Positions 13,521-57,076 of a DNA stretch of 64,000 nucleotides are shown in pieces. This DNA is from Hymenobacter sp. ISL-91 (GTDB taxonomy: Bacteria > Bacteroidota > Bacteroidia > Cytophagales > Hymenobacteraceae): NCBI RefSeq assembly GCF_018613725.1, contig NZ_JAGGPS010000010.1:101493-165492 (forward strand). The letters are read 5' to 3'. A program made the position numbers and the translations under genes. Positions within the stretch are counted from its first letter, which is position 1; each line of letters begins with the position of its first letter. The notes beneath the pieces are model-generated. The model was not told the origin of the DNA, ran no database searches, and saw only the letters and a list, made by a program, of their open reading frames with translations.

Positions 13521-16151
13521 ATGAAAAACTATACGCTACGGGCTCTGGCCTCGGTGCTGCTAGTGAGCCTGCTAACGTGCTTCGGCGCTTCGGCCCAGAC
13601 GCCGGCTCCGGCCGCCTTTCCCAACCCGTTGGCCGGTCCGGCCGATGGTCCGCTGCAGACGCCCGCCCAGTTTCTGGGCTACGAGCTGGGGGCCCGCTTC
13701 ACGCCCCATGCCGAGCTGCTGCGTTACGTAGCCCACATAGCAGCCCACAGCCCCGACCGAATGAAGCTGGAGCGCTACGGCAGCACCTACGAAAACCGCC
13801 CGCTGGAGCTGGTGTACATTGCCTCGGCCGCCAACCTGACCCGCCTCGACGACATCCGGCGCGACAACCTGCGGCTGGCGGGCCTCGAAACCGGGGCCGT
13901 GAAGGGCGCGACGCCGGCCGTGGTGTGGCTGAGCTACAACGTGCACGGCAACGAGGCCGTGTCGTCGGAGGCTGTAATGCAGGTGCTGTATGACCTCGCC
14001 AACCCCGCCAATACCACCGTGCAGAGCTATCTGCAGAACCTGGTGGTAATCGTGGACCCCTGCGTGAACCCCGACGGGCGCGACCGGTATGCGCAGTGGT
14101 ACAACCGCGTAGCCAACCGGCAGACCAACGCCTCGCCCCTGAGCTGGGAGCACCGGGAGCCCTGGCCCGGTGGCCGCTACAACCACTACTACTTCGATTT
14201 GAACCGCGACTGGGCCTGGCAAACTCAGCAGGAGAGCCGCCAGCGCATTGCCGTGTACAACCAGTGGCTGCCCCAGGTACATGCCGATTTTCACGAGATG
14301 GGCCCCAACAACCCCTATTACTTCTCGCCCGCCGCCAAGCCTTTCCACGCCGACCTCACGGCCTGGCAGCGCCAGTTCCAGGACATCATCGGCGACTACA
14401 ACCGCCGGGTGTTCGATAAGAACAACTGGCTCTACTTCACCCGCGAAACCTACGACCTGTTCGCGCCCTTCTACGGCGACACCTGGCCGAGCTTCAACGG
14501 CGCTATTGGCGTAACCTACGAACAGGGCGGCGGGGGCGTGGCCGGCATTGCCTACGCCAAAACCGACGGCGATACGCTCACGCTAAGCCAGCGCATCGAG
14601 CACCACCACGCCACCAGCCTGGCCACGCTGCAGGCCGCTGCCGAGCGCCACCAGGACCTGACCCGGGAGTTCCGCAAGTTCTACGACGATGCCCGCACCA
14701 AGCCTAAAGGCGAGTACAAGTCGTACGTGCTGGCGGGCTCCTCCGACCCCGGCCAGGTGCGCGCCCTCACGCAGTACCTCGACCGTCAGCAGATCAGCTA
14801 CGGCTTCGCGACTAAACGCAGCCGTCAGGCCGGCTACAGCTACGCCACCGGCCAAACCGAAACCGTGCAGATTGAGCCCCAGGACGTGGTTATCAGCATG
14901 TATCAGCCCAAATCGACGCTGGTAAAAGTGCTGTTCGAGCCCCAGGCCCAGCTTGAAGACTCGCTCACCTACGACCTCACCGCTTGGTCGCTGCCCTACG
15001 CCTTTGGCCTGAACGGCTACGCGCTGAAAAATCAGTTGTCAGTTAATTCAGTTGCTAGTGGTCAGTTGTCAGTTGTCAGCCCAAGCGGTAAAAACAACCT
15101 GACAACTAACAACCAACAACTGACAACCAACAACGCCCCCTATGCCTACCTGGCCCGCTGGAACAACCTGCAGGACGTGCGCTTTCTGAGCCGGCTGTTA
15201 CAGCAGGGTGTGAAGCTGCGGGTGGCCGAGGAGCCCTTTGAAACCGAGGGGCAGAAGTACGGCCGCGGCACGCTCATTATTGCCCGCACCGGCAACGAGC
15301 GACTCGGCGCACGGTTCGACCAGCTGGTACGCGCTCAGGCTGATTCGGCGGGCGTGCTGGTGCAGGCCGTGCAGTCGGGCCTTTCTACCAGCGGTGGCGA
15401 CCTGGGCTCGCGCTCGGTGCGGCCGCTGGCCACGCCCAACGTAGCCGTACTGGCTGGCCCGGGTGTAGATGCCACGGCTTTCGGCGAAGTCTGGCACTTT
15501 TTTGAGCAGCAGGTGGGCTACCCCGTCACGGTGCTGGGCACCGATTATTTCAGTGGCGTACCGCTTAGCAAATTCGATGTGCTGATACTGCCCGATGGCC
15601 GCTACGACGACATCATGACCGAAAGAACCCTGGCCGCCGTGAAAACCTGGGTGCGCGGGGGCGGCCGTCTCATCGCCCTCGAAGGAGCCTCACGTTTCCT
15701 GGCCGGCCAGAAGGACCTATTGCTCAAAGCCAAACCCTCCGACTCGACAGCCGCCAGCAAAAAAGCGCCCTATGCCGCCCTGCGCCGCTACGCCGACGCC
15801 GAGCGCGACGGTATCAACGGCCGGGTGCAGGGCAGCGTGTTCCGGGTGCAGCTCGACAACACCCACCCGCTGGCCTTCGGTTACGGCAACACCTACTTTG
15901 CCCTGCTCCGCGAAGCGCCCAACTATACGTTCTTGCCCGAAGGTGGCTGGAATGTGGGCGTCCTGAAAAAGAACAGCTACGCCTCCGGTTTTGCCGGCCG
16001 CAAAACCCGCACCGGCCTCACCGACAGCTTTGTGCTGGGTACTCAGGACTTAGGTCGTGGCCAAATCGTCTATCTGGCCGACAACCCGCTGTTCCGGGCC
16101 TTCTGGCAGGGCGGTAAGCTGCTGTTTGGCAATGCTGTTTTCATCCTATAA
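13521..16151 (+). CDS. Secreted M14-family zinc carboxypeptidase with in-frame repeat insertion
   Basis: Exported metallopeptidase, 876 residues. Signal peptide at residues 1-25 (ALASVLLVSLLTCFGASAQ). Zinc ligands of the M14 fold: HGNE (His142, Glu145) and the third His in HADFHE (His258). A PDGRDR loop, NPDG and FDLNRDWAW are also typical. The second half, with LIILPDGRYDD-like and GGRLIALEGASRFLA stretches, is the long C-terminal extension of Bacteroidota M14 proteins. Residues about 504-538 (NQLSVNSVASGQ to QQLTTNN) are encoded by a heptamer inverted repeat that interrupts the protein without shifting the frame; this Asn/Gln/Ser/Thr-rich stretch is probably a surface loop. Divergent from the S15-type hydrolase. 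Confidence 0.9.
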   Translation: MKNYTLRALASVLLVSLLTCFGASAQTPAPAAFPNPLAGPADGPLQTPAQFLGYELGARFTPHAELLRYVAHIAAHSPDRMKLERYGSTYENRPLELVYIASAANLTRLDDIRRDNLRLAGLETGAVKGATPAVVWLSYNVHGNEAVSSEAVMQVLYDLANPANTTVQSYLQNLVVIVDPCVNPDGRDRYAQWYNRVANRQTNASPLSWEHREPWPGGRYNHYYFDLNRDWAWQTQQESRQRIAVYNQWLPQVHADFHEMGPNNPYYFSPAAKPFHADLTAWQRQFQDIIGDYNRRVFDKNNWLYFTRETYDLFAPFYGDTWPSFNGAIGVTYEQGGGGVAGIAYAKTDGDTLTLSQRIEHHHATSLATLQAAAERHQDLTREFRKFYDDARTKPKGEYKSYVLAGSSDPGQVRALTQYLDRQQISYGFATKRSRQAGYSYATGQTETVQIEPQDVVISMYQPKSTLVKVLFEPQAQLEDSLTYDLTAWSLPYAFGLNGYALKNQLSVNSVASGQLSVVSPSGKNNLTTNNQQLTTNNAPYAYLARWNNLQDVRFLSRLLQQGVKLRVAEEPFETEGQKYGRGTLIIARTGNERLGARFDQLVRAQADSAGVLVQAVQSGLSTSGGDLGSRSVRPLATPNVAVLAGPGVDATAFGEVWHFFEQQVGYPVTVLGTDYFSGVPLSKFDVLILPDGRYDDIMTERTLAAVKTWVRGGGRLIALEGASRFLAGQKDLLLKAKPSDSTAASKKAPYAALRRYADAERDGINGRVQGSVFRVQLDNTHPLAFGYGNTYFALLREAPNYTFLPEGGWNVGVLKKNSYASGFAGRKTRTGLTDSFVLGTQDLGRGQIVYLADNPLFRAFWQGGKLLFGNAVFIL
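15036..15133. repeat. Paired heptamer arrays inside the M14 gene
   Basis: TTGTCAG-type units run 15036-15079 (five units, one extended to 9 bp). CTGACAA/CTAACAA/CCAACAA-type units, their reverse complements, run 15099-15133 (five units in exact 7-bp steps). The centre is about 20 bp. Same family as 27062-27144 and 56885-56940. The insert is in frame and has no stop codon. Confidence 0.85.
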
Positions 16152-19773: not shown

Positions 19774-19795
19774 GCGCACTGCTTTCACATGGAGA

Positions 19796-19831
19796 ATCCC
19801 CGGTTGTCAGTTGGCAGCCGGGGATTTTTTT
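19796..19831 (+). terminator. Terminator containing two heptamer units in its loop
   Basis: ATCCCCGG (19796-19803) pairs with CCGGGGAT (19818-19825), followed by a T run. The loop is exactly TTGTCAG and TTGGCAG, two units of the heptamer repeat family found in other spacers. It lies 22 bp after the stop of the 19174 gene. Confidence 0.88.
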
Positions 19832-27049: not shown

Positions 27050-27061
27050 GAGTTTATTTAG

Positions 27062-27144
27062 TTATTAGTTGTTGGTTGTCAGTTGTTAGATTCAAAAGCG
27101 TTGCTTCAGCCAACAACTGACAACTGACAACTAAATACTGACAA
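27062..27144. repeat. Paired heptamer arrays between rpsR and rplI
   Basis: Left: TTATTAG, TTGTTGG, TTGTCAG, TTGTTAG (27062-27089). Right: CCAACAA, CTGACAA, CTGACAA, CTAAATA, CTGACAA (27110-27144). Both arrays keep an exact 7-bp period and are reverse complements in consensus. They fill the spacer from 1 bp past the rpsR stop to 12 nt before the rplI ATG, so the operon mRNA could form a hairpin here. Confidence 0.88.
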
Positions 27145-27145
27145 C

Positions 27146-27397
27146 TTATTTCAACGAGTCGGTTACGTAGGGCATCAGGGCCAGGTGGCGCGCCTTGGCT
27201 ACTGCCTGGGCTACTTTACGCTGGAACTTGAGGCTGGTGCCGGTAATACGACGGGGCAGAATGCGGCCCTGCTCGTTGACGAACTTCAGCAGGAAGTTCG
27301 GGTCTTTGTAGTCGACGTACTTGATACCAGCTTTCTGAAAGCGGCAGTACTTCTTACGAGCGTCCTGCTTGTGCAGACGCTCGTTGGCGAGACTCAT
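27146..27397 (-). CDS. rpsR: 30S ribosomal protein S18
   Basis: Forms a heterodimer with S6 on the 30S platform. 83 residues from the ATG at 27397 ([20 protein letters not shown]), ending [14 protein letters not shown], with the conserved [22 protein letters not shown]. The frame extends to a TTG at 27415, but that would overlap rpsF; with the ATG the gap to rpsF is 10 bp. A cysteine in KKYCRF is retained, though the classic zinc-binding set is not seen. Confidence 0.97.
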
Positions 27398-56884: not shown

Positions 56885-56940
56885 CTATCAGTTGCTGGGT
56901 GCCAGTTGCCAGTTGTCAGTTGCCAGTTGTCAGTTAGGAG
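56885..56940. repeat. Heptamer array upstream of the GH20 gene
   Basis: Eight consecutive 7-bp units: CTATCAG, TTGCTGG, GTGCCAG, TTGCCAG, TTGTCAG, TTGCCAG, TTGTCAG, TTAGGAG. No inverted partner array is seen, unlike at the other sites; instead it runs straight into the GTCATTC-type palindrome at 56940. Confidence 0.88.
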
Positions 56941-57041
56941 AACGTCATTCAGAGCGGAGCGAAGAATCTCGCTCGGGCTCGTTGAACGATTACCGATAAA
57001 CGACTCAAGCGAGATTCTTCGCTTCGCTCTGAATGACGTTC
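56940..57041. repeat. GTCATTC-type palindromic repeat
   Basis: Arms 56940-56973 and 57008-57041 (34 bp each, starting GAACGTCATTCAGAGCG) are inverted copies with one mismatch, around a 34-bp centre. Same family as 11311-11421 and 8136-8180. Located between GH20 (start 56850) and the DUF58 stop (57077). Confidence 0.88.
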
Positions 57042-57044
57042 TTT

Positions 57045-57076
57045 CCCTAATCCCTAATCCCTAATCCCTAATCCCC
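57045..57076. repeat. Tandem CCCTAAT heptamers
   Basis: Four tandem CCCTAAT units followed by CCCC, ending at the DUF58 stop codon (57077-57079). The unit is again 7 bp. Confidence 0.9.

Follow-up and report, generated by a model that had tools for sequence, protein, structure and literature searches.

Palindromes that are read in frame as part of a protein are best known from Rickettsia, whose Rickettsia palindromic elements (RPEs) were reportedly described by Ogata in 2000 and 2002; how coding palindromes move is, to our knowledge, not settled. Here we analyse a hairpin-forming inverted repeat, built of TTGTCAG-type heptamers, that lies within a gene of the M14 zinc carboxypeptidase family in Hymenobacter sp. 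ISL-91. The gene is contained in a stretch of 64,000 nucleotides (NCBI RefSeq assembly GCF_018613725.1, contig NZ_JAGGPS010000010.1, positions 101,493 to 165,492 of the forward strand), called the window throughout. The M14 hairpin is real, inherited and in frame, and is part of a wider, lively system of palindromes.

Coding palindromes as such are already known, and the heptamer hairpin is of the same kind as RPEs and as repetitive extragenic palindromes (REPs) that lie inside genes. The published systems are given here as they appear in parts of the papers cited. RPEs are palindromic in-frame inserts in many unrelated genes, tolerated by the protein and varying in presence among species (PMC10969869). 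The Hymenobacter hairpins resemble them in being palindromes that are in frame in unrelated genes and tolerated, with homologues that have no element at the site, and they match an RPE-like palindrome of ~100–150 bp in hairpin score, folding and length. They differ in that their arms are tandem heptamer repeats and that palindromes of different heptamer families, or REPs, take each other's place at a single codon; the element is not conserved as a whole between copies, the arms being alike and the loops mostly not.

For CGTC- and GTAG-tagged REPs, intragenic cases are described in uvrA, uvrB and recB, with different REPs at about one recB site, and the CGTC type is reported without a dedicated transposase (PMC3733652). 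The likeness is that both kinds of palindrome occupy spacers as well as in-frame positions of repair genes, including UvrA. CGTC-type palindromes are present in the ISL-91 genome too, and nine relatives have them at the codon of a radical-SAM gene discussed below (by eye). The heptamer hairpin, in contrast, is 7-periodic and has neither a GTAG nor a CGTC end, GAACGTC being confined to separate REP palindromes.

Two further systems share the heptamer. In the P6b stem of the Nostoc trnL intron, heptanucleotide units of two classes (TDNGATT and NNTGAGT) replace each other wholesale (PMC4476775); there as here both arms consist of a 7-nt unit, copy number varies and the class of the whole stem changes at one site. 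The Nostoc case concerns one intron site in cyanobacteria, whereas the present one involves dozens of sites in one genome, several families and protein genes, so that the match, in the absence of an intron here, is one of analogy. Direct TAACTGA repeats of some Bacteroidetes, of which some sets lie inside open reading frames (ORFs) and encode LSVISYQ-type peptides (PMC4679880), differ at one base from CAACTGA, itself a rotated form of the TTGTCAG complement. Those sets are direct tandem repeats, apart from an indirect one in the BOGUAY genome; most of them lie immediately before start codons, and those within ORFs are mostly at protein ends; the present unit is CAACTGA/TTGTCAG and is inverted in 43 of 50 clusters. 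Coding palindromes are also described from nematomorph mitochondria (PMC6649704). None of the papers listed in searches confined to the open-licence literature deals with heptamer hairpins in Hymenobacter genes.

The in-frame hairpin of the M14 peptidase gene

The M14 ORF (13521–16151, plus strand, 876 amino acids) is supported by the ORF list, its translation, a Pfam search and collinear homologues. Its Peptidase_M14 domain (PF00246) covers residues 68–239 (E = 2.5e-21), and H142-G-N-E145, the HxxE motif of M14 enzymes, is invariant in the 34 sequences aligned, as expected of a family member. Within it an imperfect inverted repeat extends from 15032 to 15134 on the plus strand and encodes residues 505–538 without a stop, so that the coordinates and frame given for it in a preliminary description of this DNA are correct. 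The left arm (15032–15079) consists of TTGTCAG-type heptamers in two runs, 15032–15044 and 15048–15079, with a register shift between them; a 19-nt loop (15080–15098) joins it to the right arm of CTGACAA-type heptamers (15099–15134), where the stop-phase unit CCAACAA, contributing a Gln codon, replaces a TGA-bearing unit. TTGTCAG occurs at 16 places of the window where 5.9 would be expected, and none of 100 shuffles attains this count. The single-stranded region has a folding energy of −34.1 kcal/mol, compared with −17.9 (standard deviation 3.0) for shuffled sequence (z = −5.3).

In the AlphaFold2 model residues 512–537 have a predicted local distance difference test score (pLDDT) below 50 and no secondary structure, and are flanked by well-predicted strands. 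The model agrees with the earlier proposal of a tolerated loop, here a floppy one, and implies no function of the peptide. The enzyme has a signal-like N-terminus and is presumably secreted; the linker is rich in Asn, Gln, Ser and Thr.

Context for the repeat comes from the homologous linkers of 110 loci, which comprise 100 distinct sequences. These measure 60–132 nt (20–44 residues), 81 of them 75 nt or less with 20–25 variable residues; that of ISL-91 measures 108 nt (36 residues). A clean insertion of residues 504–538, as first supposed, is thereby rejected: the site is an old variable linker, occupied also in Pontibacter, Spirosoma, Chitinophaga and others. The array itself is present and in frame, but the ~35 residues that it was thought to add reduce to a net gain of ~12. 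The opposite possibility, a stretch with conserved residues in many genera, was checked as well, and the linker sequence is not conserved.

A TTGTCAG hairpin with z > 6 is found in six of the 100 linkers, those of ISL-91, H. rubripertinctus, H. piscis, H. actinosclerus, H. lapidiphilus (G029) and H. edaphi. In a protein tree of 56 rows, built after removal of the linker, all eight sequences of one clade have the hairpin (five) or a remnant of it (three), and a separate, distant pair consists of H. edaphi (hairpin) and Hymenobacter sp. 15J16-1T3B (remnant); the hairpin label requires at least four changes on this tree. Since the hairpin or its remnant occurs throughout the clade, it is old, inherited and locally decaying rather than a recent private insertion. 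The left arms of H. rubripertinctus and H. piscis are one 7-residue block apart, as are the right arms of H. actinosclerus and ISL-91 (alignments read by eye), which is in line with the suggestion that the element can grow inside genes.

A family of heptamer hairpins in the genome

Searching the whole genome with the TTGTCAGTTGTCAG pattern (up to two mismatches) gives 130 + 137 matches, compared with 4 + 1 for the reversed control pattern. Contig C2 in whole, 40 stretches around listed matches and two further loci, together about a tenth of the genome, were examined; the stretches were drawn from 100 of the 267 pattern places, and the genome holds more copies than are counted here. They contain at least 50 clusters. 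Forty-three are two-armed, with the TTGTCAG arm first in 43/43, and comparison of the clusters puts the M14 array in one class with the intergenic arrays, as had been claimed. Without a REP core the copies are mostly 70–130 bp long, each arm usually having three to five 7-base TTGTCAG-type units; a typical arm reads AGTTGTCAG-TTGnnAG-TTGTCAG-TTGTCAG, and the outer ends are (A)GTTG...CAAC(T) in most copies (by eye). Variation is greatest in slot 3, counted from the loop, where exact TTGTCAG occurs in 7/35 intergenic left arms, compared with 23/35, 20/35 and 17/31 in slots 1, 2 and 4. Hairpin scores of nine ISL-91 (G000) copies reach z = 7.7–26.2 (15 shuffles each). Three of the 43 copies (L001, L215 and C2:185035) have heptamer arms around a REP-like palindrome.

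In stretches pooled from six species, periods 7 and 14 stand out: lag 7 yields 27 self-similar segments and lag 14 yields 23, no other lag from 4 to 15 exceeding seven (G004 and G008 taken singly give one lag-7 segment each). Units other than TTGTCAG, among them AGCTGTT, AATTATG and AAGCTTG, make hairpins too. Outside the genus, one genome of the same order (G050) has 29 TTGTCAGTTGTCAG matches with at most one mismatch, many of them TGGTCAG variants; the other non-genus genomes searched have 0–5.

The loops are mostly dissimilar. Of 595 pairs 12 score 12 or more (at most one in shuffled loops), six of these through heptamers left in the loop, and a few loops have a common core such as CCAGCAGAACG. 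The motif AACG/CGTT recurs, however, in 20/35 loops, against 7.3 expected and a maximum of 14 in 300 shuffles. The arms, as a set, match better within copies than between them: over the 43 copies the arm scores sum to 1055, whereas reassigning right arms among copies, with realignment, gives 888 (standard deviation 18, maximum 940 in 200 permutations), and the own right arm is unbeaten in 12/43 copies. In one spacer (L187) the differences between ISL-91 and G029 are mirrored on both arms (by eye).

Eight of the 43 two-armed copies are in-frame parts of long ORFs, all of which have a Pfam assignment. The hosts are the M14 peptidase, a radical-SAM protein, IcmF (between the B12-binding and MeaB domains), a PD-(D/E)XK protein, a Dala-Dala ligase ORF, an alpha-2-macroglobulin, GcpE/IspG and UvrA. 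Four further copies (L189, L205, L217, L220) overlap open frames and are excluded from this count, as they lie near or before the likely start or in a doubtful frame; single-arm tracts in open frames (L210, L213, L216) are outside the 43. A pure CTGACAA arm of at least 21 nt has a stop in every frame. In the eight in-frame copies a stop triplet is carried by 0/7 units in the stop phase and by 25/35 in the other phases, compared with 90/119 intergenic units. The zero follows from the frame being open; the contrast with the other-phase and intergenic units means that the family unit had to differ there. Five copies possess units in the stop phase, and counted from the loop the first such unit is always the third. 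The inserts of M14, UvrA and IcmF would encode peptides of the LTTNNQQLTTNN type, and annotators should beware that QLSVVS and LTTDNQQLTT stretches can be DNA-level repeats rather than domains.

L199 1162–4050 is a 942-residue ORF with two N-domain and four C-domain stretches of Dala-Dala ligase in addition to the hairpin, and looks like a tandem fusion. At L213 1803–3608 a PurQ-type GATase ORF runs into a DUF559 domain; ahead of its GATase domain it has a heptamer tract with one arm.

Different palindromes at the same codon or spacer

At one codon, other species have a short site or another heptamer hairpin (UvrA, IcmF, radical SAM) or, in radical SAM alone, a REP palindrome. Palindrome types were read by eye, with scores for 9/30 UvrA and 11/28 radical-SAM loci. 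The 30 UvrA loci comprise five heptamer hairpins (one with the unit TTATTCG), four decayed or intermediate sites, one of 57 nt and twenty of 42–45 nt. At the 28 radical-SAM loci there are six heptamer tracts of several units (that of G008 weak), nine in-frame CGTC-type REP palindromes, seven sites of 33–39 nt, one decayed REP, two short remnants, two other tandem repeats and one poorly aligned locus. Five hairpins, one of them built of AGCTGTT, are present among the 30 IcmF loci, and a few loci, G013 and G006 for example, have one-armed tracts with other units (by eye). The radical-SAM linker accepts several repeat types; in G022 and G011 (L305, L306) the tandem repeats are in frame and are SPSPAMAGEHFTP-like and LPPPALVQPALGQV-like.

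Spacers behave similarly. A second TTGTCAG hairpin of the window (27058–27146, fold z = −7.2) fills the spacer between two minus-strand genes, which from their sequence we take to be rpsR and rplI. This spacer has a 7-periodic hairpin in ISL-91 and in 5/5 relatives, in four of them of another unit, with lag-7 matches of 0.73–0.82 (0.49 in G008). Orthologous stretches were compared for five of the 40 two-armed copies outside C2, and a palindrome lies opposite in every relative found (scored, except L187 versus G016, which was judged by eye).

On C2, 42 palindromes were followed through 56 comparisons, three artefacts of N runs being left out. At an arbitrary similarity threshold of 0.5 the relative has the same palindrome in 2/13 comparisons of heptamer hairpins other than M14 (a class that includes the terminator-like C2:169074), 2/14 of REPs, where several pairs called different may be diverged copies of one REP, 0/2 of the one mixed palindrome and 1/5 of M14. 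The site is called absent in 1/56, not a heptamer copy, and six comparisons have no hairpin.

The loops do not survive a change of unit. At the same site but with different units their similarity is 0.244 (37 pairs), compared with 0.27 across sites (283 pairs) and 0.479 for the same site and unit (16 pairs); 4893 of 5000 random draws reach 0.244 (unit labels were set by eye and some loops trimmed by hand). Since the loop is not carried over when the unit changes, the hairpin is replaced whole. The rplI loops of G029 and G004 are alike only when one is reversed (0.55), which could be a loop inversion.

Close species of a free-living genus with many sequenced members thus differ in the palindrome at the same housekeeping codon or spacer, so that insertion, slippage and template switching should be separable by comparison of strains.

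Origin of the hairpins and other palindromes nearby

We give a probability of roughly 0.6 to the reading that the M14 array is an acquired, inherited hairpin of a palindromic family which is altered by slippage, kept up by arm repair and later replaced whole by other families or REPs. An ancestor of a Hymenobacter subclade would have gained the hairpin inside the disordered M14 linker, the frame being open as the stop-phase unit was without TGA, TAA or TAG. The tract would then have been inherited, growing or shrinking through slippage in three-heptamer steps (21 nt, seven residues) and decaying in some species. The two arms of a copy are most likely kept complementary by hairpin-templated repair; such template switching between inverted arms is published (in the parts consulted of PMC8794818, PMC8604942 and PMC7202029). 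Over longer times hairpins at given spacers or linkers may be swapped, by insertion of mobile palindromes as we infer, for other heptamer families or CGTC-type REP palindromes. With other families present elsewhere in the same genomes, a pool of mutually replacing palindromes is the simplest reading.

Several observations weigh against this account. In the M14 copy itself 29 of 38 arm positions pair, for 31/43 copies the right arm of another copy fits better than their own, and mirrored deviations after realignment (177, against a permuted mean of 125 and maximum of 173) lie narrowly above all permutations. Among 39 copies no pair has identical inner left arms (up to 28 nt), so that nothing points to a spread in the very recent past. 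The GTAG-type palindromes of C2 are the same in G029 at 5/5 sites and in G016 at 0/3, which means that turnover is not special to heptamers at the latter distance. Rewriting of the arms round a conserved loop is rejected by the loop comparison. No lag-7 array lies within ~1.5 kb on either side of the three Y1 transposase genes of the genome, and no clean empty site with a target duplication is found in the 56 C2 comparisons or in the orthologous spacers, the in-gene short sites being too diverged for a duplication to be read. Mobility of the element, as the preliminary description suggested, is in keeping with the other palindromes at the same codon of three other genes and is, with no such empty site, plausible but unproven.

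A further and tentative reading goes beyond the favoured one: spacers and disordered linkers could be fixed docking places at which interchangeable palindromes, heptamer hairpins of several families as well as CGTC-type REPs, are swapped wholesale from species to species, in frame where the place is coding and without a known transposase. If so, the hairpins would be palindromes of a new class, mobile or able to rewrite themselves, in which the third unit from the loop, variable in intergenic copies too, leaves one frame open.

Slippage could be the whole explanation, with linker codons drifting to a TTGTCAG-like seed, the tract growing from there and the hairpin arising as a by-product of template switching, so that nothing moved. 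Heptamer tracts are a known class of slippage (Mrazek 2007, as cited in the part consulted of PMC4679880), relatives' arms differ by 21-nt blocks (by eye), the IcmF genes of G013 and G006 have tracts with a single arm, and a target duplication has not been found. Independent local events would not, however, be expected to give a common unit in at least 50 clusters with one polarity in all that are two-armed, nor a recurring AACG/CGTT loop motif, nor the swapping of hairpins for REP palindromes at a single codon of the radical-SAM gene, and we regard the explanation as rather unlikely.

It is less probable still that the spacer hairpins are retained for an RNA function, in mRNA processing or translation, and that the in-gene copies are side effects. 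The rpsR–rplI spacer, with its hairpin kept in every relative despite the change of unit in four, would fit, as would the 49/56 C2 comparisons in which the relative has some hairpin scoring at least 14 (a threshold without shuffled control) and the precedent of Nostoc P6b stems made of either heptamer class, as far as the source covers it (PMC4476775). The in-frame copies in unrelated genes, and the species without them at those codons, do not fit. No known RNA family reaches its Rfam gathering score in the window; microRNA and other matches lie far below (best E = 0.00019) and are taken as generic hairpin matches.

Mobilization by the host's REP-associated tyrosine transposases (RAYTs, Y1 type) is improbable. 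The genome does have three Y1_Tnp genes, and heptamer arms flank a REP-like palindrome in 3/43 copies, but within ~1.5 kb all three genes have other palindromes (GTAGGGGCGGGG..., GTAGTTCGCG type and AGGGCTAAAGCCC) and not the heptamer array, so that the link is rejected for these three; a GTAG-type REP mobilized by a RAYT would have the same palindromes beside the Y1 gene. The fates of the two classes also diverge in G029, where the heptamer hairpins other than M14 are the same at 1/8 C2 sites and the GTAG type at every site, but the GTAG type is not kept in G016. The palindromes flanking the Y1 genes L222, L223 and L221 are their own (GTAGGGGCGGGGCTTGTCCCCGCC, GTAGTTCGCG type and AGGGCTAAAGCCCT, respectively), and the GTAG type recurs on C2. 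Selection at the protein level for an adhesive or cleavable repeat domain, which the Asn/Gln/Ser/Thr-rich linker and the apparent secretion might suggest, is very improbable, as the linker is unconserved, decayed in close relatives and predicted to be disordered, and its peptide recurs in proteins that are unrelated and probably cytosolic.

Other palindromes of the window also border on heptamers. A palindrome of the CGTC-REP kind (AGAACGTCATTCAGAGCG..., 56939–57042, that is C2:158431–158534) has a TTGTCAG/TTGCCAG array on its left (56888–56935, plus strand) and a TCCCTAA heptamer array on its right (57044–57075, plus strand). The right side of the C2:185035 palindrome has CTGACAA-type units in ISL-91 and TCCCTAA-like units in G029 and G016. 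A terminator-like stem at 19795–19826 (plus strand) has the loop TTGTCAGTTGGCAG, and its counterparts in three relatives have TTGCCAGTTGGCAG, TTGCCAGTTGGCAA or TTGCCAATTGGCAG; with a TTGTCAGTTGGCAG-like loop kept in all three, heptamer-like sequence evidently sits in terminator loops too. Finally, the G016 counterparts of C2:112800 and C2:166734 are REP palindromes whose outer arms are apparently 8-periodic (TGAGGTGG and GGTGATTG).

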